Assembly (NCBI RefSeq): GCF_900113335.1
Contig: NZ_FOOX01000018.1
Coordinates: 1 to 64,000 of the forward strand
Source: Desulfotruncus arcticus DSM 17038
GTDB lineage: Bacteria; Bacillota; Desulfotomaculia; Desulfotomaculales; Desulfallaceae
Reading direction: 5' to 3'
Length of the DNA stretch: 64,000 bases
Part shown: positions 4,531 to 31,108 of the stretch, in pieces
Layout of the letters: the number at the start of each line of letters is the position of its first letter
Position numbering within the stretch: the stretch's first letter is position 1
Translations under genes and position numbers: made by a program
The notes under the pieces: model-generated
Databases searched by the model: none
Told to the model about the DNA's origin: nothing
The model's input: the letters and a program-made list of their open reading frames with translations, nothing else

Positions 4531-6057
4531 TTAAAGAGGAATATTACCGTGTTTACGCCAGTGCAAATCCTCAAGTTTATCTTTTAACATGTTAAGGGCG
4601 CTAATTATCCTGGTCCTTGTTTCACCAGGCTCAATAACGTCATCCACGTGCTGCTTGAAACAAGCGTCGTATGGGTTGGCGAATTTATCCTGGTAATCTT
4701 GAATTAACTTTCTTTTTGTTTCGTCCGGGTTTGAGGATGACGATATCGTTTTTTTGAAGATTACATTAACCGCGCCTTCAGGCCCCATCACGGCAATTTC
4801 GGCCGTGGGCCAGCTTAAAACAAGATCCGCTCCCAGGTGCTTGCTGCACATGCCTATATATGCGCCCCCGTAAGCTTTTCTCAAAATAACCGTGATTTTG
4901 GGGACAGTTGCTTCTGAATAAGCGTATAACAATTTTGCGCCGTGCCTGATGATTCCCTTGTATTCTTCCTGGGTCCCCGGTAAATAGCCGGGAACATCAA
5001 CCAGTGTAACCAGCGGGATATTAAACGCATCACAGAGCCTGACGAACCGGGCGGCTTTGTCAGAGCTGTTGGAATCCAAAACTCCGGCCATGAATTCAGG
5101 CTGGTTCGCCAGTATCCCCACGCTTTGTCCGGCAAAATGGGCAAAACCCACCACAATATTTTTCGCATAATCAGCTTTGACTTCATAAAAGTCCCCGTTA
5201 TCTACCAGTGCGTTAATCAGTTGATGAACATTTAATGGCTGCCTGGGATCGTCAGGAACGATATCCGCGATGTCCAGCCCGCTGTTGATCGGATTCCTGA
5301 AGTCCACCTGAAGCGGCTTTTCTCTGTTATTCTGGGGTATATAGGTTAACAATTTTCTTATTTGCCCGATACATTCCTCAGGGCTGTCAACAAGAAAATC
5401 CGCGTTGCCCGAAACCCTGGTATGGATATCCGCGCCCCCCAATTGAGCCATGCTGACGTCTTCCCCCATCACTTCCTTGACAACACCCGGTCCGGTAATA
5501 AACATACAGGCATCTTTGACGATATAAATAAAATCCGTTATGGCGGGGGAATAAACAGCCCCTCCGGCACAAATGCCCATAATAGCGGTAATTTGCGGTA
5601 TAACGCCGGAATACCGGGTATTTCTTAAAAAGATACCCCCATACCCGGCCAACGCATCCGTACCCTCTTGTATTCTTGCCCCTGCTGAATCACATAAGCC
5701 CACAATGGGGGCGCCCGCCTTGGCTGCCAGATCCATGATATGCCAAATTTTTTTGGCGTGGGCCAGGCCGAGCGAGCCGCCCAACACGGAGAAATCCTGG
5801 GCGTAAACAAAAACCGGACGTTCTAGAATATTACCGTACCCGGTAACCACACTATCCCCCAGGGCGCCCTTGTTTTCCATGCCGAAATCGGTACAACGGT
5901 GCTTGACAAACATATTGATTTCAACAAAAGTACCCGGGTCCATTAGTTTATTACACATTTCACGCGCGGTCATTTTTCTGGCCGCAGATGAACTGCCCCG
6001 GTCCGACAAAGCCTGTTCCTTTAAAGATTGGAAATGTTTTAAAACTTTATTTTGCAT
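4531..6057 (-). CDS. acyl-CoA carboxyltransferase (MmdA/PccB family)
   Basis: A 508-residue biotin-dependent carboxyltransferase with N- and C-terminal crotonase-like halves. Typical motifs are seen: VVTGYGNILERPVFVYAQDF, SAGARIQEG, GGGAVYSP-type oxyanion glycines (CAGGAVYS) and the C-terminal GGAYIGMCSKHLGAD. Length and motifs fit methylmalonyl-CoA decarboxylase alpha or the propionyl-CoA carboxylase beta subunit, not the longer glutaconyl-CoA decarboxylase alpha. With OadB- and OadG-like genes downstream in the same run it most simply forms a membrane Na+-pumping malonyl-type CoA decarboxylase. The exact acyl group is unknown; a branched malonyl-CoA is possible because the mutase keeps a carboxylate-binding arginine. 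Confidence 0.9.
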   Translation of the reverse strand: MQNKVLKHFQSLKEQALSDRGSSSAARKMTAREMCNKLMDPGTFVEINMFVKHRCTDFGMENKGALGDSVVTGYGNILERPVFVYAQDFSVLGGSLGLAHAKKIWHIMDLAAKAGAPIVGLCDSAGARIQEGTDALAGYGGIFLRNTRYSGVIPQITAIMGICAGGAVYSPAITDFIYIVKDACMFITGPGVVKEVMGEDVSMAQLGGADIHTRVSGNADFLVDSPEECIGQIRKLLTYIPQNNREKPLQVDFRNPINSGLDIADIVPDDPRQPLNVHQLINALVDNGDFYEVKADYAKNIVVGFAHFAGQSVGILANQPEFMAGVLDSNSSDKAARFVRLCDAFNIPLVTLVDVPGYLPGTQEEYKGIIRHGAKLLYAYSEATVPKITVILRKAYGGAYIGMCSKHLGADLVLSWPTAEIAVMGPEGAVNVIFKKTISSSSNPDETKRKLIQDYQDKFANPYDACFKQHVDDVIEPGETRTRIISALNMLKDKLEDLHWRKHGNIPL

Positions 6058-6074: not shown

Positions 6075-7646
6075 TTAGATCATTCGCTCCTGCCCTTCCC
6101 AGTAAGGCTTCTTCACCAAGCGCTTCAGAATTTTGCCTGTGGCGGTACGTGGAAAATCATCCCTGAATTCGATGGAACGGGGAGTCTTAAACCCGGCCAG
6201 GTGCTGTTTACAGTAAGACAGCAGTTCCTCTTCCGTGGCTTGGATGCCCTCTTTAATTATTACCAGCGCTTTAACCACTTCCCCCCACTGTTCGTGCGGA
6301 ACACCGATTGCCGTAACCTCTGAAACGGCAGGGTGTTTGATAATCACTTCCTCGATTTCCGCCGGGTAAACATTTTCCCCTCCGCTGATGATCATGTCAT
6401 GCTTTCTGTCAACCAGGTAATAATAACCTTCCGTATCAAAGTAAGCCATATCTCCGGCCGTTGACCATTCGCCGTTAATTGCTTCCCTTGTCTTTTTAGG
6501 ATCCTTGTAATAACCGATAAAGGCCGAGGGGGCCTTGGCCCAGAGTACCCCAACTTCATTGGGTTTGGTGACTACCTGCTGATTCTCGTCGATAAGTTTT
6601 ATTTCAATGCCGGGATTGGGTTTTCCAATGCTCCGGACTTTTCTCATCTGGTCCTTGTGGCGCAGAGTGGTAAGAGCGCCTGTTTCCGTTGATCCGTAAC
6701 CTTCACTGAACCGGGCGTTACTAAAAAACTTTAATGCCGCTTCCTTGGTTTTGGTTAAAAGAGGAGCGGAAGAGGAACCCACCGAAGTCAGCGAATCCAT
6801 GTTATACTTATTTTTAATTTCTCCCGGCAGTTCAAGTATTCTTGTGATCATTGTGGGGACCATGGAAGTTGTGGTCACTTTTTCCCGGTCAATAATCTGC
6901 AGCACATTCTCAGGTTTAAATTTGCCTGACGGGAAAATAACATTGGTCCCGCCAAACCAGTAAGTTATCAATGTGGCCCAGATACTGTTGGAGTGGCAAA
7001 TCGGCATGATGGCCAAAAAGGCTCTCTGGGTCAAGTCAACCCCCTGCCTGTTGGCATTGCGCACCAGGGCGTTTTTTATAACTTCCAGAGTACCCCTGGT
7101 TTGAATCATGGCTCCCTTGGGGAATCCCGTGGTACCCGAAGTGTAACCAAGATAGAATAAATCTTCTTCACTTTGTTCCACGTAGGGTTCATGATCCGGC
7201 ATACCAGTAAGAATGTCCTCGTAATTATGCAAGCCTTCGGTTTCTGCACCGTCGTCACCGACTACGTAACAATTGCCTGCGACATTGGGAGTTCTCCCGG
7301 CGTCAAAGTCTTTTACAAATTCAGGACCGATAAATAACGCTTTAGATTCAGAATTGTTGATGATATAATTACGTTCGTTGGGCACCAACCTGAAATTAAT
7401 CGGTACTGAAACTACTCCGATACGGGCAAAAGCATGGTAAAGCTCAAGGAATTCAATACAGTTGTACAGGATAATGGATACTTTGTCGCCCCGTTTAAAG
7501 CCCCTCTTTAGCAGGCCATGAGCTAAGCGATTGGCTCTGGTGTTTAATTCGGAGTAAGTCAGTCTTTTTTCTTCAAAAACAACAGCGGTCTTATCGGGGT
7601 AGCGCCAGGAATTAATACGTAGCCCGTCCGCTAGGTTCATTGTCAA
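6075..7646 (-). CDS. AMP-forming acyl-CoA synthetase
   Basis: A 523-residue class I adenylate-forming enzyme with P-loop-like YTSGTTGFPKGAM, the AMP motif EGYGSTETGA, the hinge region DRKHDMIISGGENVYP and the catalytic C-terminal lysine in TATGKILKR. It activates a carboxylic acid to its CoA ester with ATP. Specificity is not readable; in this cluster the substrate could be a short branched acid or the acid form of an intermediate. It starts 17 bases after the stop of the degenerate dehydrogenase-like gene and 17 bases before the carboxyltransferase gene, so it belongs to the same transcript. Confidence 0.9.
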   Translation of the reverse strand: MTMNLADGLRINSWRYPDKTAVVFEEKRLTYSELNTRANRLAHGLLKRGFKRGDKVSIILYNCIEFLELYHAFARIGVVSVPINFRLVPNERNYIINNSESKALFIGPEFVKDFDAGRTPNVAGNCYVVGDDGAETEGLHNYEDILTGMPDHEPYVEQSEEDLFYLGYTSGTTGFPKGAMIQTRGTLEVIKNALVRNANRQGVDLTQRAFLAIMPICHSNSIWATLITYWFGGTNVIFPSGKFKPENVLQIIDREKVTTTSMVPTMITRILELPGEIKNKYNMDSLTSVGSSSAPLLTKTKEAALKFFSNARFSEGYGSTETGALTTLRHKDQMRKVRSIGKPNPGIEIKLIDENQQVVTKPNEVGVLWAKAPSAFIGYYKDPKKTREAINGEWSTAGDMAYFDTEGYYYLVDRKHDMIISGGENVYPAEIEEVIIKHPAVSEVTAIGVPHEQWGEVVKALVIIKEGIQATEEELLSYCKQHLAGFKTPRSIEFRDDFPRTATGKILKRLVKKPYWEGQERMI

Positions 7647-7663: not shown

Positions 7664-8497
7664 TTAATATAAAGAATCAGTGTATTCATAAAAACCGCGC
7701 CCTGTTTTACAGCCCAACCGGTTTAATTGAATATACTTGTAAAATAACCGGCAGGGATAAAACTTGCCGTCACCGGTACTCTTGTATAATTTTTCAAGTA
7801 AGTTCAGGCACTCATCCAATCCGATCAAGTCGGCCAGCGCCAGTGGACCGACAGGCATATTGGGGCCCAGGGTCATTAATGAATCTATCTCTTTTTCGTT
7901 GGCCATCCCCAGCATTAAAAAGTACGCTGCCTCGTTAATCATCGGCATAATCACTTGGTGCAAAATAGGAGTTGAAAAGTCAGAAAATTCAATGATTTTC
8001 TGATCATAAATATCGTTCAACAAGCCCTTTACTTTAAGCATTGTTTCATCAGAAGTGGCCACAGTCTTGATGATTTCTATTACATCACCCTGCGCATCCA
8101 GGTTCAGCCCGGCAACTTTGGCGGGCCTTTTTGTCTCTGCGGCTATCAGCGTTAAGTTGCATGTAAAACTGTTGGTTACAAAAACAGTATCCGCCGGGCA
8201 TAAGTAATCTAAATACTTAAATAATTTTTTCTTGAACTCCAATGTTTCTTTGGTGCAATCAATTACAATATCGGCCTTCTGAAAACCATGGCTATAGCTT
8301 GAACTTTTTTTGCCCGTCTTGTGCAAACCGTGACGATAACCCTTTTTTGCCGGATCGTGATATTGTTCAATTATTTTCTGTATATTGCCGTCGCTTATGT
8401 TTATAGCATTAGTGGTAATATTGCTTTTAGCCGCTTCATTGGCCAAAGTTTGACCAACAATATTGTCATAAAGTATCGCTGCGCATTTTAATAACAA
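7664..8497 (-). CDS. 3-hydroxyacyl-CoA dehydrogenase homologue with degenerate active site
   Basis: The protein (about 277 residues) aligns along the whole length of short-chain 3-hydroxyacyl-CoA dehydrogenase and is clear in the C-terminal half (GPLALADLIGLD, KTGRGFYEY). Key elements are changed. The N-terminal GxGxxG NAD loop reads YDNIVG. The catalytic His of HFFNP is Asn (GLNLDAQ). The Asn of that motif is gone, and the later Asn of VNR is replaced (ILHQ). The glutamate of the His-Glu pair is kept (VIEIIKT). TTG at 8497 is chosen because TGGAGG lies 8 bases upstream. It is intact and in an operon, so it is probably a functional non-dehydrogenase or regulatory subunit rather than decay. 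Confidence 0.75.
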   Translation of the reverse strand: MLLKCAAILYDNIVGQTLANEAAKSNITTNAINISDGNIQKIIEQYHDPAKKGYRHGLHKTGKKSSSYSHGFQKADIVIDCTKETLEFKKKLFKYLDYLCPADTVFVTNSFTCNLTLIAAETKRPAKVAGLNLDAQGDVIEIIKTVATSDETMLKVKGLLNDIYDQKIIEFSDFSTPILHQVIMPMINEAAYFLMLGMANEKEIDSLMTLGPNMPVGPLALADLIGLDECLNLLEKLYKSTGDGKFYPCRLFYKYIQLNRLGCKTGRGFYEYTDSLY

Positions 8498-8553
8498 TTT
8501 CAAAACCTCCAAACACAGCGAATTTCCAATTTACCACCTGTTCCGAGATTCAG

Positions 8554-9735
8554 CTATATATTTTCCACCACCATGGCGGCGCCCATACCGCCGCCGATAC
8601 ATAAAGTCGCCAGACCGTACTTGCTGTGGCGCCGTTTCATTTCATACAAAAGTGTCACCAGTATTCTTGCACCGCTGGCGCCTATCGGGTGACCGATGGC
8701 GATAGCCCCTCCGTTTACATTAGTCTTTTCAGCCGGAAGCTCAAGCTCCCTCATCACTGAAATAGCCTGGCTGGCAAAAGCTTCGTTGGCTTCAATCAGG
8801 TCCATATCGGCAATGGTCAGGCCCGCCCCGGCCAGGGCCTTGCGACTTGCGGGAATAGGTCCCGTGCCCATGATGGCGGGGTCAACACCCGCCACTGCGG
8901 AAGATCTGACTAAAAACATCGGTTTGACATTTAGTTCTTTGGCCTTGTCAGCCGACATTAACACCACTGCCGCGGCACCGTCATTTATGCCCGAGGCATT
9001 ACCCGCCGTTACCGTGCCGCCCTTTTTAAATGCGGGCGGCAACTTGGCCAAAGCTTCCGGCGTAGTGCCGCGGCGTGGAAATTCATCCGTATCGAACTCC
9101 ACCGGTGGGCCCTTTTTCCGGGGAATGGGAACCGGAATTATTTCATCCTTAAACTTCCCGTTATCAATGGCAGCGATAGCCTTTTGTTGGCTGTCCGCGG
9201 CAAAAGCGTCCTGTTCCTCCCTGGTAATGCCAAATTTTTCCGCTATATTCTCAGCGGTTATACCCATGTGGTAATTGCCGAACGCGCACCATAACCCGTC
9301 CTTGATCATTAAGTCTACGAGATTGCCGTCCCCCATTCGATAACCCCAACGGGCATTTTGAACCAGATACGGGGCTGTGCTCATATTCTCGGTGCCACCT
9401 GCCACAACTACTTCGGCCTCATTATTGGCAATCAAACCGGCTGCCTGAGATACTGATTTAAGTCCCGAACCACATACAATATTGATGGTCCAGGCCGGAA
9501 CTTCCCGGGGTACGCCTGCCTTGACGGAAGCCTGCCGGGCCACATTCTGCCCCCAACCGCCCTGCAGCACATTACCCATGATTACTTCGTCGATATGACC
9601 GGTATGGATGCCGGCACGCTTGATCCCTTCGCCTATGACCAGGGCGCCCAGATCAACCGGCGAAATGTTTTGCAGACTTCCCCCGTATTTACCAACCGCT
9701 GTGCGAACGGCGCTTACAATAACAACGTCTTTCAT
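8554..9735 (-). CDS. acetyl-CoA acetyltransferase (thiolase)
   Basis: A 393-residue classical thiolase II with all catalytic elements: nucleophilic Cys in [10 protein letters not shown], the NEAFA motif, [10 protein letters not shown] with the active His, and the C-terminal Cys in LCIGGGMG. It condenses two acetyl-CoA or cleaves acetoacetyl-CoA or a related 3-oxoacyl-CoA. The start ATG at 9735 is preferred over the ATG six bases upstream, which abuts the GGGGGG ribosome site. As the final step of a ketone or butyrate-type route it would give acetyl-CoA. It is the only fully canonical beta-oxidation enzyme in this operon. Confidence 0.95.
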
Positions 9736-9755
9736 CAACATCCCCCCTGGCTTTG

Positions 9756-11508: not shown

Positions 11509-13539
11509 TTATGGTTTCATCTCATCTTCAGTTAGGGGCTCCCAAGGATCCGCGGTGGCCATCTTCGGCATATCAACGAGCCCTTCGAACTTGCCGGGTT
11601 TACCCCAGATGGCCCGGCGTGCCCGTTTGCCGCGTTGCGGGATATCAACCCAGGGCAGGTGAGCGTACATCAGGCAGTAAACCGGCGATGTGACAGCCTT
11701 GTTAACCAGTTGAATATCCATCATGCAATTAAGCACGGCGGGTTGCCCCTTTTCTGCTGCCTGGAAGCAGCGGTCCAGGGCGGCGGTAAAGTTCTCATGC
11801 CTGTCAACCATCTCACCGTAACAACCTAATTCCCGGGCAATTTTGTCCCATCTCATCGCTGGTTTGCGTTCCTGCCCCATCTGTATGGAACCTTCCCACT
11901 CATTTCCCATGACGTCCTGATCACCAAGAGCATCCCAGTTTGGACCGTACCAGGGATATTTCATACCCGGCATCCAGCCATTGTTTTCAGTTACCAGGTA
12001 GACGATGGGCAGTTTATAACGAGCTGCCGTTTCAACCTCCAACCCGGCATTGCCCATTCCGGAGTCACCCATCAACGCGAGAACGGGGGTTCTGTCCCCT
12101 TGTTCCAGCTGGGCAAAGGCGGCGCCCATGGCCATGGCTACCCCGTGGCCTATACCGGCTTGCTCGGAAGAACTGAGTACCTGGGCGGGCCGTACAGCTT
12201 TAATATACGGCATGACAAAATCGGACATGGTGTAACCGTCAATCATGATCCGCACTTTACTTGCGTACTTTTCTTCCAGGTAATCGGCAATGGCCTGGGA
12301 AATATACCCGTGGTGCATGCAGTTCTCTTGCTTGTACTTGGGATGTTCAAACCCGTAATACATTGCTTTGTCCCGGCGTCGCTTTTCAGCCTCCGATCTG
12401 GCCTGTTGCACTTTCTTAATCCACTCGTCCCTGCCCGGCGGGGGTTGCAGGCTGTTGGCTTTGATATAATCAATCATTTGCCGGGCCACTACCTTCGGGT
12501 TCCCCACTATGGCAGTGCTGGTGGGCACATAGGTCCAAATCTGGTCGGCGGATTCGCTAATCTGTATCGTCTCGGGCCATCCGCCGCCGTAGCCGTCAAA
12601 GAAGCCGACTTTAACCCCGATGGGGACCATGACCTCAATTTCATTCCGGAAAGGAGGCAGACCACGATAGTAGTAATCGTGTTTTTCAGAAACGACGGCC
12701 CGGCCGGTGCGCCGTGTCGTAAAGGGTATTTTGGCCAGTGTAACCAGTTCGGTCAGTTCCTCGGACGCCTCCGCCCAGGTGGCGCCGTCACCGAAAATCA
12801 TAAATGGTTTATCAACTTCGTACAGGCGTTTGACGGCCTTGGCTATATCATCCGGATTTCCGCCGCTGCTGAGCGGTTTGGCCGTGTCTTCCCCTCTCCA
12901 GTCCGGAATCCAGGTGGCATGGTCACCCCAAAGACCCCACCAAACCTTGTTTTTAACATCATCCTGGGTAAACAGGCAGCTGATGCCCAGTTCCATGATT
13001 ACCGGCCCTTTGGGGAAAGACTGGGCGTCCTTGAAAGCCCGGGTCAAAAATTGTTTGATGGTATTGGGATAGGTCACGCGCTGAGCCCACTTGGAGATAC
13101 TGCCCATAAGCTCGGTGGCGTAGCTTTCCTGGATGGTATTGTAAAGCTTATCGTGTTCGATTTCGTGACCACCGCATAAGAAGATGATGGGTGAATTGCT
13201 CAGGTTGGCCTGCTGCACAGCGCTGACGGCGTTACCGACACCGGGACCCACCGTTGCGTAGCATACCGCCGGCTTGCCGCTGACCTGGGCGTAAGCTTCA
13301 CCACAATACACAGCGTTTTGCTCGTGTAAAAAGGTAATAGTTTTAATGCCGATGCGGCTGATTGCGTCTATGAAATGCCAGATGTGTCCCCCGGGTACAC
13401 CGAAGGCGATTTTAACACCGTGTTCTTTTAATGCCTCAGCCACCCACATGCCGGCATATGGATATAATTCTCTTGTTCCCAGTTGATAGTCTAATTTCTT
13501 TTGTGCTTCCTTATCGAATTCAATTCCCAACTTGGTCAC
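11509..13539 (-). CDS. thiamine-diphosphate-dependent enzyme, 2-hydroxyacyl-CoA lyase/acetolactate-synthase family
   Basis: A large ThDP enzyme of about 676 residues with three domains. The N-terminal pyrimidine domain carries the catalytic glutamate in FLHEQNAV followed by the VGPGVGNAVSA stretch. A central domain follows, and then the pyrophosphate domain with GDSGMGNAG and NN about 25 residues later. The C-terminus extends about 80 residues past the usual end, as in CoA-ester-acting members where a tail closes the site. The frame is open to 13623, but a GTG at 13539 has AAGGAGGG upstream and is preferred. Candidate chemistry is C1 transfer between a ketone or aldehyde and formyl-CoA, giving or cleaving a 2-hydroxyacyl-CoA. 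Neighbouring mutase and secondary alcohol dehydrogenase genes support this, but substrate identity is inferred. Confidence 0.85.
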   Translation of the reverse strand: MTKLGIEFDKEAQKKLDYQLGTRELYPYAGMWVAEALKEHGVKIAFGVPGGHIWHFIDAISRIGIKTITFLHEQNAVYCGEAYAQVSGKPAVCYATVGPGVGNAVSAVQQANLSNSPIIFLCGGHEIEHDKLYNTIQESYATELMGSISKWAQRVTYPNTIKQFLTRAFKDAQSFPKGPVIMELGISCLFTQDDVKNKVWWGLWGDHATWIPDWRGEDTAKPLSSGGNPDDIAKAVKRLYEVDKPFMIFGDGATWAEASEELTELVTLAKIPFTTRRTGRAVVSEKHDYYYRGLPPFRNEIEVMVPIGVKVGFFDGYGGGWPETIQISESADQIWTYVPTSTAIVGNPKVVARQMIDYIKANSLQPPPGRDEWIKKVQQARSEAEKRRRDKAMYYGFEHPKYKQENCMHHGYISQAIADYLEEKYASKVRIMIDGYTMSDFVMPYIKAVRPAQVLSSSEQAGIGHGVAMAMGAAFAQLEQGDRTPVLALMGDSGMGNAGLEVETAARYKLPIVYLVTENNGWMPGMKYPWYGPNWDALGDQDVMGNEWEGSIQMGQERKPAMRWDKIARELGCYGEMVDRHENFTAALDRCFQAAEKGQPAVLNCMMDIQLVNKAVTSPVYCLMYAHLPWVDIPQRGKRARRAIWGKPGKFEGLVDMPKMATADPWEPLTEDEMKP

Positions 13540-13766
13540 GCCATTTTCCCTCCTTTTTACTTTTGAAATAATTGATTTGGCTGTGAACTCCGGCTTTGAG
13601 TATCTTACACCGGCTTCATACACTTATTGGTAATGATTGAACAGCCTGGGAGTTCACATATCTTTTTTGTTCCGCCGCTTAACAAATCACCGGGGTTCCT
13701 CCTTTCCTTATTTTTCACGCGGCAGACAATAAAATCACCGTTGTTACAGTTACTTGAGTTTTACAT

Positions 13767-14807
13767 TTACTTGTTCGGATGAACCCAAGGCTGAGCATTG
13801 TAAGGCGGGATATTTTTACCCCAGTCAACCCGGCCTTTGGGAATACGGCCTGTTTTGGTTGTGTAGGGGCGCAGTTCCCTTTCCAGCACGTGTTCCAGTA
13901 TGCGGCCCAGCTCAAGGACCCTGTCGACATCGACGCCCGTGTCAATTCCCATCTCATCAAACATTACCACCAGGTCTTCGGTGGAACCGTTGCCGGTGAT
14001 ATCGCTGGGGGTATATAACCAGCCGGTTCCTATTGCGGGAACCCCGTCCACAACATAAGAAGGTTGGCCTCCCAGTTGACCCAACGAGGCTTCAAACTCC
14101 GTAACACCGGCAAGCAGGGCGGCAAAATAATTCGTCAGCCCCGTGCCCCTGGCATCATGGAAATGGGCCCGGTGCACATCTTCGTTGGGAAATTTTTCCC
14201 TTAACCTGCTGAAAAACTCGTATACCCTGTCCGGCGCCGCCTCACCTGTTGTATCGCAGGGTGTGGCGGACGAGCATCCCATTTCAAGGCCTCTTTCAAT
14301 CAACTCAAAAGTTTTCTCCATCGGTACCGGTCCGGTTATGGGGCATCCAAAAACACAGGCTATGGCCATGTCGAGCTTGATGCCGACGCTTTTACACATC
14401 TTTACCCAGTTGGGAATCTGCTCAAAGAATTTTTCCACCGGCCGGTTAGCATTGCGCATACAATGGGCATCTGTTGTTGAGATGGTGAAGGCCAGAATAT
14501 CGGGACCGAAACCATTCTCTTTGGCAATCACCGCACGTTCTACAGCCTTATCGGTCATGCCGTAACACTTATACTGGACACCGGGTTTACGTTCAATGCG
14601 TTTTAGAACCTCCTCGGCATCCTTGGCTTGCGGTAAATATTTAGGGTGGCTGAAATTAGTGGCCTCTACTACTTTAAAACCCGCTTCGGAACATGCATTG
14701 ATGAAAAAAACTTTGGTTTCTGTCGGCACAAAGCGCCTTTCATGCTGTATTCCGTCCCTGGCCAATAATTCCGTCATATTTACCTTTTTGGGAAATTGCA
14801 GCTTCAT
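13767..14807 (-). CDS. HMG-CoA-lyase-like DRE-TIM protein lacking the catalytic cysteine
   Basis: A 346-residue TIM-barrel protein related to 3-hydroxy-3-methylglutaryl-CoA lyase. The metal site is intact: RDG near residue 18, HFH at 215-217 and the late Asn in TGNGSTED. The catalytic loop, normally GLGGCPYAQGASGN, reads LGGQPSYV and carries an insert of about a dozen residues, so the essential Cys is Gln248. It is first in its operon, behind a sigma-54-type promoter, and is followed by the ThDP enzyme. Cleavage by the known mechanism is unlikely; an aldol/lyase reaction on another 2- or 3-hydroxyacyl-CoA, or a scaffold role, is possible. Start ATG follows GGGGGTATTTTA. Confidence 0.82.
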   Translation of the reverse strand: MKLQFPKKVNMTELLARDGIQHERRFVPTETKVFFINACSEAGFKVVEATNFSHPKYLPQAKDAEEVLKRIERKPGVQYKCYGMTDKAVERAVIAKENGFGPDILAFTISTTDAHCMRNANRPVEKFFEQIPNWVKMCKSVGIKLDMAIACVFGCPITGPVPMEKTFELIERGLEMGCSSATPCDTTGEAAPDRVYEFFSRLREKFPNEDVHRAHFHDARGTGLTNYFAALLAGVTEFEASLGQLGGQPSYVVDGVPAIGTGWLYTPSDITGNGSTEDLVVMFDEMGIDTGVDVDRVLELGRILEHVLERELRPYTTKTGRIPKGRVDWGKNIPPYNAQPWVHPNK

Positions 14808-23666: not shown

Positions 23667-24080
23667 TTAATTAGCCATCTTTTTTTGCATAGACTCCAAT
23701 ACACCATTGACAATGGCCTCTCTTGACGCCCCGCTGGGGAACACATTATCGAAACCCATTTCTCGCAACTTGGGTATATCCTTTGGTGGAATTACTCCCC
23801 CCATAAGAAAACCAACGCTTTTATCATACTCCTTCTTTTTGGCCAAGTTCATAAGCAGCTTTCCGATACTCAAATGGGCGCCCGATAACGAGCTTACTCC
23901 GACAGCCTGAACGTCTTCATCTATGGCAATCTTTAGCGCTTCTTCCGGGGTGGCATTGCCCAGGTAAACTACCTCCATGCCGGCATCCCTAAGCATCCCG
24001 CTAACCGTTAATATTCCCCTGTTGTGAGTCTCCGGACCTAAACAGCACATCAGAACTTTAGATATTCTTTTTTGTTGCAT
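23667..24080 (-). CDS. B12-binding small subunit of acyl-CoA mutase (variant ExHxxG)
   Basis: A 137-residue Rossmann-type cobalamin-binding domain, the size of HcmB/IcmB small subunits. The histidine that replaces the lower axial ligand is present (His19) and the end GVSSLSGAHLS is typical. The family motif DxHxxG reads ETHNRG, with Glu17 for Asp, and the lysine usually four residues before that Asp is Cys13. Both residues tune the Co-His bond in methylmalonyl-CoA mutase. It is co-transcribed 69 bases after the large subunit. The substitutions are rare and suggest a separate clade. Confidence 0.9.
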   Translation of the reverse strand: MQQKRISKVLMCCLGPETHNRGILTVSGMLRDAGMEVVYLGNATPEEALKIAIDEDVQAVGVSSLSGAHLSIGKLLMNLAKKKEYDKSVGFLMGGVIPPKDIPKLREMGFDNVFPSGASREAIVNGVLESMQKKMAN

Positions 24081-24149: not shown

Positions 24150-25916
24150 TTAGAAAAAACTGGGTTTTATCCACAGGCCAAAGGCTTCCTTGAACACTTT
24201 CCATTGTTCCCCCACGGTGCAACCAGCCCGGGAACAGTCAAGCGTATAAGGAACAATATTGACTCCTTTTTGGCAAGCATCTTTTAGAGCATTTAAAGCA
24301 CTCTCCACTTTTTGCGGATCTCTGTGGGCTTTATGCTCCTTGAGCCTGTTGATTTGTTTTTGCTCCGCGTCTTCCGGGTACCTGAAAGCCTCAAAATCTT
24401 CTCCGCGGGCGCTTTTTTGCCAGTTATGGGCTACTATTTTTATTTCTCCGCTCTCGATTTTTTTATGTTCATTGTAAAAATATTTATAGATTTTACGCAG
24501 CAGGAACCCATTACTAACCGCGTTAACGTATCCGCCCTGCTCCTCAATGGCAGTGATTTCCTTTAAAATCTCCCTTTCGATTTCATTAGTCAGAAATTCA
24601 ACGTAGAAAGATCCGCCCAGGGGGTCTACGACCGCGGTGATACCCGTTTCGTGTTCCAGGATCTGCTGGTTGCGCAGTGACAGCAAGGATGCCTCTTCGG
24701 ATGGAATGGCGTATGCTTCATCATAAGAGTCAACGTGCAGGGATTGGGCGCCGCCCAGCACCGCGGCTAATGCTTCATAAGAGGATCTGATAATATTATT
24801 CAGCGGTTCTTCCCGCACCAGGCTGATTCCGGAAGTTTGCACGTGGCAGCGCATCCACATTGACCTGGGGTTTTTGGAATTGTATTTATACTTCATGATC
24901 CTGTACCACAGCCGTCTTACAGCACGTAGCCTGCAAACCTCTTCAAAGAAATCCATTGCCGGTGACCAGAAAAATGCCAGCCTTTCGCCTACCCAGTCAA
25001 CATCATGACCCCGCCTGATCATTTCATCCAAGATTTCCATGGCATGGGATAATGCTACCGCCATCTCGGTAACCCCGGAAGTGCCGAATTCCCGCAGGTT
25101 ATAACCATTCAGGGTGATGAAATTCCAACGGGGCACATTCTGCCTGATAAATTCAATATTATCGCATTCAATGCGAAAACAATCCTGTGGGGGAATATAC
25201 TCGGCGGCATTGCGAACTAATTCCTCCAGGGTGACGTCATTTTGTACGCTGCCCCGCAACTGGTCCCAGGGAACACCCCTGCGCTCCGCCAGAACAAGGT
25301 ACATGGGGAATAAAATGGCGGTGTTTGAGGGGTAATGAGTAACTATGGAAGATGTTTCTTTGCCGATATCAATGTCTTTGAACAACAGTTCCCAGTCATC
25401 GACATAATCAATACAGGCCCCGCAAGAACCAACTTGCCCTCTTGACATCGGGTTATCTGAGTCATACATTTGTATTGTTGGCATATCAAAAAGAATATTC
25501 AGTCCCGTGGCGCCATGCTCCAGCAAGAATCTCATTCTGGCGTTGGTATCTTCCGGTGCCCCGAAACCAACCAACTGGCGTTGAGTAAATGTTCTGCCCC
25601 TGTACATATTGGGGTGTATGCCCCTGGTAAAAGGTTCATGCCCGGAAAAACCGAGGTCTTCATTGTAGTCAATGTCACGTATACTAAGCGGCGTATACAG
25701 TAATTCCCTGGATAATTCCGAACCCAGTACGGTGCTGGGAGTCATGTGCCAATTCTCCCGGTCCTCTTTCCGAAGTTTGTTCTCTTGCCAGGCGCTGAAT
25801 TCACTGCTGAGTTTTTCTAAAGCCTCCGGGTTAAAAAGTGGCGTGTGACTTTGACCGGCCATACTTTTTTCCAAAATCTCCGCAGTCTTCCGGTTGTCAG
25901 TGTTTAATTCCAACAT
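24150..25916 (-). CDS. large subunit of a split B12-dependent acyl-CoA mutase, unusual active site
   Basis: A 588-residue methylmalonyl-CoA-mutase-type TIM barrel without its own B12 domain, as in IcmA/HcmA. By alignment with P. shermanii MCM: Tyr89 is Leu115, Ser114 is Asn140, Ala116 is Leu142, Arg207 is kept as Arg235, Tyr243 is kept as Tyr272, and the nearly invariant His244 is Asn273 (NGYNLREFG). Isobutyryl-CoA mutase has Phe/Gln and 2-hydroxyisobutyryl-CoA mutase has Ile/Gln plus Asp at the corresponding sites, so none of these is a match. The retained Arg hints at a carboxylate or other polar group; Leu at Tyr89 makes room for a bulkier substrate. Its chaperone MeaB is encoded at 31.1 kb. 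Confidence 0.93.
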   Translation of the reverse strand: MLELNTDNRKTAEILEKSMAGQSHTPLFNPEALEKLSSEFSAWQENKLRKEDRENWHMTPSTVLGSELSRELLYTPLSIRDIDYNEDLGFSGHEPFTRGIHPNMYRGRTFTQRQLVGFGAPEDTNARMRFLLEHGATGLNILFDMPTIQMYDSDNPMSRGQVGSCGACIDYVDDWELLFKDIDIGKETSSIVTHYPSNTAILFPMYLVLAERRGVPWDQLRGSVQNDVTLEELVRNAAEYIPPQDCFRIECDNIEFIRQNVPRWNFITLNGYNLREFGTSGVTEMAVALSHAMEILDEMIRRGHDVDWVGERLAFFWSPAMDFFEEVCRLRAVRRLWYRIMKYKYNSKNPRSMWMRCHVQTSGISLVREEPLNNIIRSSYEALAAVLGGAQSLHVDSYDEAYAIPSEEASLLSLRNQQILEHETGITAVVDPLGGSFYVEFLTNEIEREILKEITAIEEQGGYVNAVSNGFLLRKIYKYFYNEHKKIESGEIKIVAHNWQKSARGEDFEAFRYPEDAEQKQINRLKEHKAHRDPQKVESALNALKDACQKGVNIVPYTLDCSRAGCTVGEQWKVFKEAFGLWIKPSFF

Positions 25917-28542: not shown

Positions 28543-28698
28543 ATGGAAATCAAAAAAATTCTTAAGCAGGTTTTGGTGACTCCAAGTACAGGCCGTGCCC
28601 GCTGCTTCGCAAGTATGTTGCCGCGGGCCGGCTTGGCAGAAAAACAGGCCGGGTTTTTTACGAATACGCAGATGCTTTTTTTTAATCTTACAGGTTAA
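28543..28698 (+). ncRNA. operon leader: 51-codon ORF overlapping alternative hairpins
   Basis: Downstream of the sigma-54 promoter an AAGGAGGTG site precedes ATG 28543, which opens a 51-codon frame ([14 protein letters not shown]...) closed 9 bases before the next gene's start region. The same stretch can form GCCCGC/GCGGGC and, overlapping it, a GC-rich stem around CCGGC/GCCGG followed by GTTTTTT, like an antiterminator/terminator pair. The arrangement suggests attenuation coupled to leader translation. Alternatively the ORF is a small protein. I do not recognise a known riboswitch. Confidence 0.45.
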
Positions 28699-30049: not shown

Positions 30050-31108
30050 ATGAAAGCGTTTGTAATGCACGGTATCGGCAGAGTAGGAATAATGGAGAAA
30101 CCGCTGCCGGCGGACCCCGGACCCAATGATGCGATAATCAAGACTACTGCCGCTCTTGTTTGTACTTCCGACGTACACACAGTACATGGTGCCATAGGTG
30201 AAAAGGTTGACCTTACACTGGGCCACGAAGCATTAGGAATTATACACAAACTGGGCAGTGCTGTTGAGAGTTTAAAAGTAGGAGATCGTGTGGTAGTTAA
30301 CGCAATAACCCCTTGTTATAAATGTGAAAACTGCCAGCGCGGCTTCACTTCACAATGCACCACGATGCTGGGTGGCTGGAAATTCGCTAACATTAAAGAC
30401 GGCTGTTTTGCCGAATATTTTCATGTCAACGATGCCGATGCCAACCTGGTACCTGTTCCAAGTTCTGTTTCCGATGAAGCCGCCCTGTACGCCACAGATA
30501 TGATGTCCACCGGTTTTATGGGGGCGGAACATGCCGGTATTCCTCTTGGTGGTACTGTTGCCATTTTTGGCCAAGGTCCGGTCGGTTTAATGGCTACAGC
30601 CGGATCCCGTTTGTTGGGCGCCGGTTTAATAATAGCGGTAGAAACAGTACCTCACCGGCAGCAACTCTCAAAATATTACGGAGCAGACATAATCTTGGAC
30701 TTCAAAAAAGTAGATGTAGTGGAAGAGATTTTGCGTATTACGAATGGTCAAGGCGTTGATTCCGCTATTGAGGCATTGGGCACTCAAGTTACTTTTGAAA
30801 ACTGCATCAAAGCTACAAGGCCCGGAGGTACAATTTCCAACATAGGTTATCATGGTGAAGGTGACTATCTCAAAATTCCCCGGGTCGATTGGGGAGTAGG
30901 CATGAGTGATAAAACAATACGGACAGGTCTATGCCCCGGCGGCAGAGAGCGCATGAGCAGGCTGCTTCGCCTCATTGAATCCGGACGAATTGATCCAACG
31001 GCATTAACAACACATAAATTTAGATTTGATGAGATAGAAAAAGCATTTGAATTAATGGCAATTAAAGGTGATAACGTTATTAAACCTTTAATACTATTTG
31101 AAGATTAA
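30050..31108 (+). CDS. zinc-dependent secondary alcohol dehydrogenase (isopropanol/acetone type)
   Basis: This 352-residue protein closely resembles the Thermoanaerobacter/Clostridium beijerinckii secondary alcohol dehydrogenases. It shares catalytic Zn ligands Cys38, His59 and Asp150 with Glu60, and the signature EYFHVNDAD. Two differences stand out. Four cysteines at 89, 92, 95 and 103 form a structural Zn site that the T. brockii enzyme lacks. Glu198 replaces the Gly198-Ser-Arg that binds NADPH phosphate, so NAD+ is predicted. It would oxidise isopropanol or 2-butanol to the ketone, or reduce ketones. It sits between the peptidase-like gene and meaB in the same operon. Confidence 0.92.
   Translation: MKAFVMHGIGRVGIMEKPLPADPGPNDAIIKTTAALVCTSDVHTVHGAIGEKVDLTLGHEALGIIHKLGSAVESLKVGDRVVVNAITPCYKCENCQRGFTSQCTTMLGGWKFANIKDGCFAEYFHVNDADANLVPVPSSVSDEAALYATDMMSTGFMGAEHAGIPLGGTVAIFGQGPVGLMATAGSRLLGAGLIIAVETVPHRQQLSKYYGADIILDFKKVDVVEEILRITNGQGVDSAIEALGTQVTFENCIKATRPGGTISNIGYHGEGDYLKIPRVDWGVGMSDKTIRTGLCPGGRERMSRLLRLIESGRIDPTALTTHKFRFDEIEKAFELMAIKGDNVIKPLILFED

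Follow-up and report, generated by a model that had tools for sequence, protein, structure and literature searches.

Among characterised enzymes, the closest counterparts of the protein considered here are the 3-hydroxybutyryl-CoA dehydrogenases (HBDs) and other 3-hydroxyacyl-CoA dehydrogenases (HADHs; PF02737 plus PF00725), represented by the structures 4kug of C. butyricum and 6aa8 of C. acetobutylicum. In human HAD, the proton of the substrate passes to His158, which a Glu keeps in position, while an Asn sandwiches the nicotinamide (PMC10988713). In FadB2, the catalytic Ser was found to be essential (PMC6333283). The FadA-FadB complexes, in which an HADH-fold protein is coupled to a thiolase, provide a precedent for a physical partnership between these two families (PMC6333283). 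In the acetone pathway proposed for D. arcticum, the step yielding acetoacetyl-CoA has been assigned to the product of gene 04014 (Ga0056061_04014) as the 3-hydroxybutyryl-CoA dehydrogenase, a protein whose abundance, by proteomics, was high during growth on acetone, butanone and isopropanol as compared with butyrate (PMC8084838). Meanwhile, in D. cetonica, 3-hydroxybutyryl-CoA dehydrogenase activity was reported on butyrate as well as on acetone (PMC7888143). The clusters of D. cetonica and D. biacutus, both members of the Desulfobacterota, were compared through the papers alone. A literature search returned no paper containing both "pseudoenzyme" and "3-hydroxyacyl-CoA dehydrogenase".

The window analysed here, a stretch of 64,000 nucleotides of Desulfotruncus arcticus DSM 17038 (D. 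arcticum in the published work), holds the published acetone-degradation cluster, including the genes for the TDP enzyme, the HMGL-like protein, the 2-hydroxyisobutyryl-CoA mutase subunits and the thiolase. The product of 04014 is best explained as a retained and expressed pseudo-dehydrogenase which has neither NAD binding nor a dehydrogenase centre and most likely acts as a non-catalytic subunit (probability roughly 0.55). The initial annotation, made from the sequence of the window, was right in recognising a degenerate HADH in a conserved gene slot, but it missed both the identity of the acetone cluster and the remnant of a second HADH gene described below.

The genes surrounding 04014 were assigned by domain searches and by comparison with the orthologous clusters of Desulfoscipio geothermicus and Peptococcaceae BRH_c4b. 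Directly upstream of 04014, across a gap of 56 nt, lies the gene for an acetyl-CoA acetyltransferase (thiolase; 04015, positions 8554-9741, minus strand; Pfam Thiolase_N/C and NCBIfam), whereas the genes for an acyl-CoA synthetase (04013, 6075-7646, minus strand; 84% and 79% identity in the two orthologous clusters) and a carboxyltransferase (04012, 4531-6057, minus strand; 80% and 77%) are located downstream. Further upstream are the genes for the TDP-dependent enzyme proposed for acetone activation (04018, 11509-13623, minus strand; Pfam TPP_enzyme domains), the HMG-CoA-lyase-like protein (04019, 13767-14807, minus strand) and the small, B12-binding, and large subunits of 2-hydroxyisobutyryl-CoA mutase (04030, 23667-24080, and 04031, 24150-25916, both on the minus strand). 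The identities to D. geothermicus calculated here for the TDP enzyme (88.757%), the HMGL-like protein (89.017%), the small and large mutase subunits (73.881% and 84.354%) and the HADH-like protein itself (57.778%) equal, to two decimals, the published values of 88.76, 89.02, 73.88, 84.35 and 57.78% (PMC8084838). Hence, the open reading frame under study is Ga0056061_04014. In D. geothermicus, a second, partial copy of the TDP enzyme gene, corresponding to its C-terminal half (G015:C40:200249-201148; ∼290 aa, 78% identity), is found between the genes for an SCP-x thiolase and an enoyl-CoA hydratase.

The initial annotation had grouped the HADH homologue with the lyase-like protein and the mutase as three active-site-altered proteins in one island, a framing that did not hold up. 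The best solved match of the large mutase subunit is 4r3u (1.2e-119), as the pathway needs. In the HMGL-like protein, the HxH pair is kept, and the motif comparison showed that the catalytic Cys loop (LGGCP) is replaced by LGQLGGQP plus an insertion. Since the sequence LGQLGGQP recurs unchanged in each of the five ketone clusters that were compared (the other four being L048, L052, L055 and L068), it is a trait of the family rather than a sign of decay. The HMGL-like protein therefore seems to represent a specialised family that has been conserved, perhaps with a role in ketone activation.

The longest uninterrupted frame of the HADH-like gene spans positions 7664-8512 of the minus strand and starts with TTG (282 aa). 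However, a second TTG at 8497 falls, in the alignment, where the D. geothermicus orthologue starts and is preceded, at a distance of 8 nt, by the Shine-Dalgarno-like GGAGG at 8506-8510 of the minus strand (TTTGGAGGTTTTGAAATTG), which makes 7664-8497 (277 aa) the better gene model and agrees with the intact frame originally proposed. The product exceeds the Pfam cut-offs (∼22 bits) for both 3HCDH_N (60.1 bits) and 3HCDH (78.2 bits), and its best NCBIfam HBD model reaches 180 bits, the cut-off being 408. A profile search of the PDB placed the Clostridium 3-hydroxybutyryl-CoA dehydrogenases nearest among solved proteins (4kug at 1.7e-61). The AlphaFold model, built from a shallow alignment of four sequences (mean pLDDT 70.9), combines a Rossmann with a helical domain, and HADHs are its top Foldseek matches (probability 1.00, TM about 0.56), with an uncertain orientation of the two domains. 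By descent and by its two-domain fold, 04014 belongs to the HADH superfamily, and it has the same domains, length and element order as HBD/HADH enzymes.

Unlike these enzymes, 04014 is devoid of the NAD loop and of the catalytic Ser, Asn and His. The comparison was made with 35 other aligned HADHs, 32 of which formed the conservation set, and follows the numbering of Clostridium HBD. The GxGxxG motif is replaced by YDNIVG in D. arcticum, YDGTIG in D. geothermicus and FDGNIG in BRH_c4b; hence the first Gly has given way to Tyr or Phe in all three orthologues, whereas the second is changed (to Asn) in D. arcticum only. In Rossmann folds, an aromatic residue in place of the first loop Gly should block the dinucleotide. 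Ser117 is replaced by Phe and Asn188 by His in all three proteins, while the catalytic His138 has become Asn only in D. arcticum, the two other orthologues keeping the His-Glu pair. Glu150 of this pair is retained in 04014, and Asn141 is replaced by Ala. Neither the first Gly of GxGxxG nor the catalytic His is lost in any of the 35 other HADHs. The losses named in the initial annotation, namely those of GxGxxG, of the catalytic His and of two further Asn, are all correct, although the list overlooked the Ser117 substitution, the three-residue shortening of the HFFNPxPVMK loop (common to the three orthologues) and, in D. arcticum only, the exchange of the acidic residue behind beta-2, an Asp, for Asn. 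In addition, about 7-9 residues of the N-domain hairpin are absent from all three proteins (∼9 relative to HBD/HADH in 04014). Of the features expected of a functional HADH (EC 1.1.1.35 / 1.1.1.157), 04014 has the domains but not the dinucleotide loop with the beta-2 acid, the His-Glu pair or Ser117 and Asn188. None of these losses is mentioned in the main text of the paper that takes 04014 as a working dehydrogenase (PMC8084838). The family-invariant residues are kept unevenly in 04014, with 28 of 39 in the C-terminal domain versus 21 of 54 in the NAD domain (p=0.003); in the D. geothermicus orthologue, the corresponding difference did not reach significance (p=0.2). A differently altered dehydrogenase is encoded near a TDP enzyme in the second ketone cluster of BRH_c4b (L057, 10362-11216); in this protein, Thr stands in place of the catalytic Ser, Ser in place of the catalytic Asn and Tyr in place of the HFFNP Asn, and both the NAD loop and the His are preserved.

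An initial scan of contigs with the 04014 protein alone gave no relatives, and a class-wide search then revealed two orthologues, in D. geothermicus (58%) and BRH_c4b (47%), both in the identical operon slot. The gene order, that is, TDP enzyme, radical-SAM protein, small protein, thiolase, HADH-like protein, acyl-CoA synthetase, carboxyltransferase and 2-oxoacid oxidoreductase, is the same in all three genomes, with the thiolase invariably adjoining the HADH-like gene; the conserved operon position noted earlier is thus confirmed, within one clade. Across the class, the HADH-like gene occurs in three of the five genomes with the acetone TDP enzyme and in none of the 108 without it, and it is absent from the ketone clusters of CEB3, SKS3, FK5 and G067, which possess the TDP enzyme and thiolase. 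Because of this distribution, the gene is a cluster-specific and lineage-specific accessory. When 398 genomes of the phylum were searched with a profile, the degenerate clade gained no additional member, its scores of 527-550 bits being clearly set apart from the next, at 246 bits. BRH_c4b also harbours four copies of the TDP enzyme on separate contigs (G029; loci L061, L064, L066 and L067), which suggests several ketone clusters in this genome. In the phylogenetic tree, the three orthologues fall into a single, fully supported clade (100/100), whose stem measures 2.8 changes per site and joins the HBD branch beside the HBDs of Desulfotomaculia and other Bacillota; since the branches are long, the exact point of attachment is unsure.

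A long stem followed by constraint may also be read as the acquisition of a new, cofactor-independent catalysis on a CoA ester, e.g. hydrolysis, hydration or epimerisation, by means of newly conserved residues. Indeed, the former active site contains or adjoins a set of clade-specific residues (His185, Phe116, Asp16, Cys268, and the pair Asp139 and Gly142 within the shortened loop), together with the retained Glu146. However, the abundant D. arcticum copy is without the His kept by the others, which leaves no recognisable catalytic dyad common to all three, and there is no known activity for comparison. A novel enzyme of this type is therefore considered unlikely, and a non-catalytic pseudo-dehydrogenase is preferred.

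The constraint itself is apparent from the codons. Between the three orthologues, identity is 0.37-0.41 at third positions and 0.70-0.79 at second positions, and the dS values of flanking genes, where computable, are mostly >2. With synonymous sites thus saturated, the proteins are nevertheless 46-57% identical, with full-length frames in all three genomes and 108 positions invariant, which points to purifying constraint and not to neutral decay. The dN of the HADH-like gene is 0.32-0.44 and its dN/dS, a check proposed in the initial annotation, is roughly 0.15-0.2 or less, a value given as an upper bound because saturation left the dS from pairwise counting mostly undefined. This is about three times the ratio of the thiolase or the TDP enzyme and close to those of the radical-SAM and 106-aa neighbours. 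In spite of its lost catalytic residues, the HADH-like gene is under purifying selection.

The same data bear on the view that 04014 is a functionless relic, translated inside a strongly induced operon and decaying, faster in D. arcticum than elsewhere. Frequent truncation and purely relaxed selection, the marks of simple pseudogenisation, are not seen in the two orthologues, yet evolution has been faster in D. arcticum, whose copy carries 48 unique changes versus 17 in D. geothermicus (chi-square 14.8), a modest excess over the neighbouring genes (Fisher p=0.029). Other ketone clusters manage without an HADH-like gene, and the canonical HADH of the same cluster has been lost. Against decay stand the three open frames and the invariant positions that outlasted synonymous saturation, and useless genes seldom persist that long in bacteria. 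The relic explanation is thus rather improbable, if least so for the D. arcticum copy, and a retained, non-catalytic role remains the preferred one.

The cluster of D. geothermicus contains, in addition to the orthologue of 04014, an intact canonical HADH gene (G015:C40:214489-215340) between those of a sigma-54 regulator and an Xaa-Pro peptidase. It is a separate paralogue from the same superfamily, with all motifs intact, and an SDR is encoded elsewhere in that cluster. At the syntenic position of the D. arcticum assembly, a remnant of this gene was identified (28543-28685, plus strand), consisting of a ribosome-binding site, a start, about 7 codons (MEIKKIL), a large internal deletion with a frame change and 33 C-terminal codons. 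The C-terminal part matches HADHs in tblastn searches with E values of 6e-14 to 1e-12 (82-88% over 32-34 aa), and the remnant is 84% identical to the D. geothermicus gene over 81 nt (blastn). Consequently, 04014 is the only intact HADH-like gene remaining in the D. arcticum cluster: in this organism, it is the degenerate paralogue that has been retained and is expressed, and the competent HADH that has decayed.

Two candidates for a substitute were considered. The SDR of the D. geothermicus cluster finds only 35% matches throughout the D. arcticum genome. The zinc secondary-alcohol dehydrogenase 04035 (30050-31108, plus strand), published as "threonine dehydrogenase", is an unlikely 3-hydroxybutyryl-CoA dehydrogenase, since it is closest to isopropanol dehydrogenases (phmmer 1.7e-112 to the NADP-dependent enzyme 7f3p); D. 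arcticum grows on isopropanol, and D. geothermicum, without 04035, does not (PMC8084838). Outside the cluster, the D. arcticum genome carries at least two HBD-type genes, one with every motif (L002) and one differing only at the Gly of PGF (L001). As 04014 is degenerate, the cluster HADH is deleted and a close SDR is missing, the oxidation of 3-hydroxybutyryl-CoA in D. arcticum would have to be performed by a canonical HADH encoded elsewhere in the genome. The activity pattern of D. cetonica is consistent with a general beta-oxidation HADH serving the acetone pathway. The published assignment of 04014 as a working NAD-dependent 3-hydroxybutyryl-CoA dehydrogenase, although favoured by its strong induction on ketones and HADH annotation (PMC8084838) and by the lack of another intact HADH-like gene in the cluster, is the least likely explanation and a very improbable one, with Tyr at the first loop Gly, Asn, Phe and His in place of the catalytic His, Ser and Asn (the first being the proton acceptor in human HAD and the second essential in FadB2; PMC10988713, PMC6333283), and canonical HADHs present elsewhere in the genome.

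The origin of a non-catalytic subunit may be envisaged as follows. An HBD paralogue would have arisen a single time, in an ancestor shared by a few ketone clusters of the Desulfotomaculia type, and would subsequently have lost NAD binding. The better conserved C-terminal helical domain could still pair the subunits, while the remodelled N-terminal domain might serve either to hold a CoA ester, be it acetoacetyl-CoA or 3-hydroxybutyryl-CoA, or to dock the thiolase encoded upstream. By analogy with thiolase-HADH complexes, acetoacetyl-CoA may in this way be delivered to thiolysis. One must bear in mind, however, that FadB is a working enzyme with a hydratase fused to it; a complex of 04014 with the thiolase is proposed from the precedent of FadA-FadB and from gene adjacency. 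The case for a non-catalytic subunit is weakened by the small number of orthologues (three), two of which keep the His-Glu pair, and by the list of induced D. geothermicus proteins, which names 101176-101178 and 101180 and not the orthologue, 101179 by position (PMC8084838). A more specific proposal, in which 04014 is a dedicated HADH-fold subunit that chaperones or channels acetoacetyl-CoA to the thiolase and has outlived the genuine dehydrogenase of the D. arcticum cluster, must be regarded as tentative.

These findings call into question one of the steps published for acetone degradation by sulfate reducers, as the dehydrogenase named for D. arcticum should be incapable of the reaction and the canonical gene of the cluster is deleted. 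They also provide a natural series leading from a dehydrogenase to a pseudoenzyme, which starts with a paralogue that is active, passes through two orthologues that are half degenerate and ends with one protein that is fully degenerate and highly expressed.
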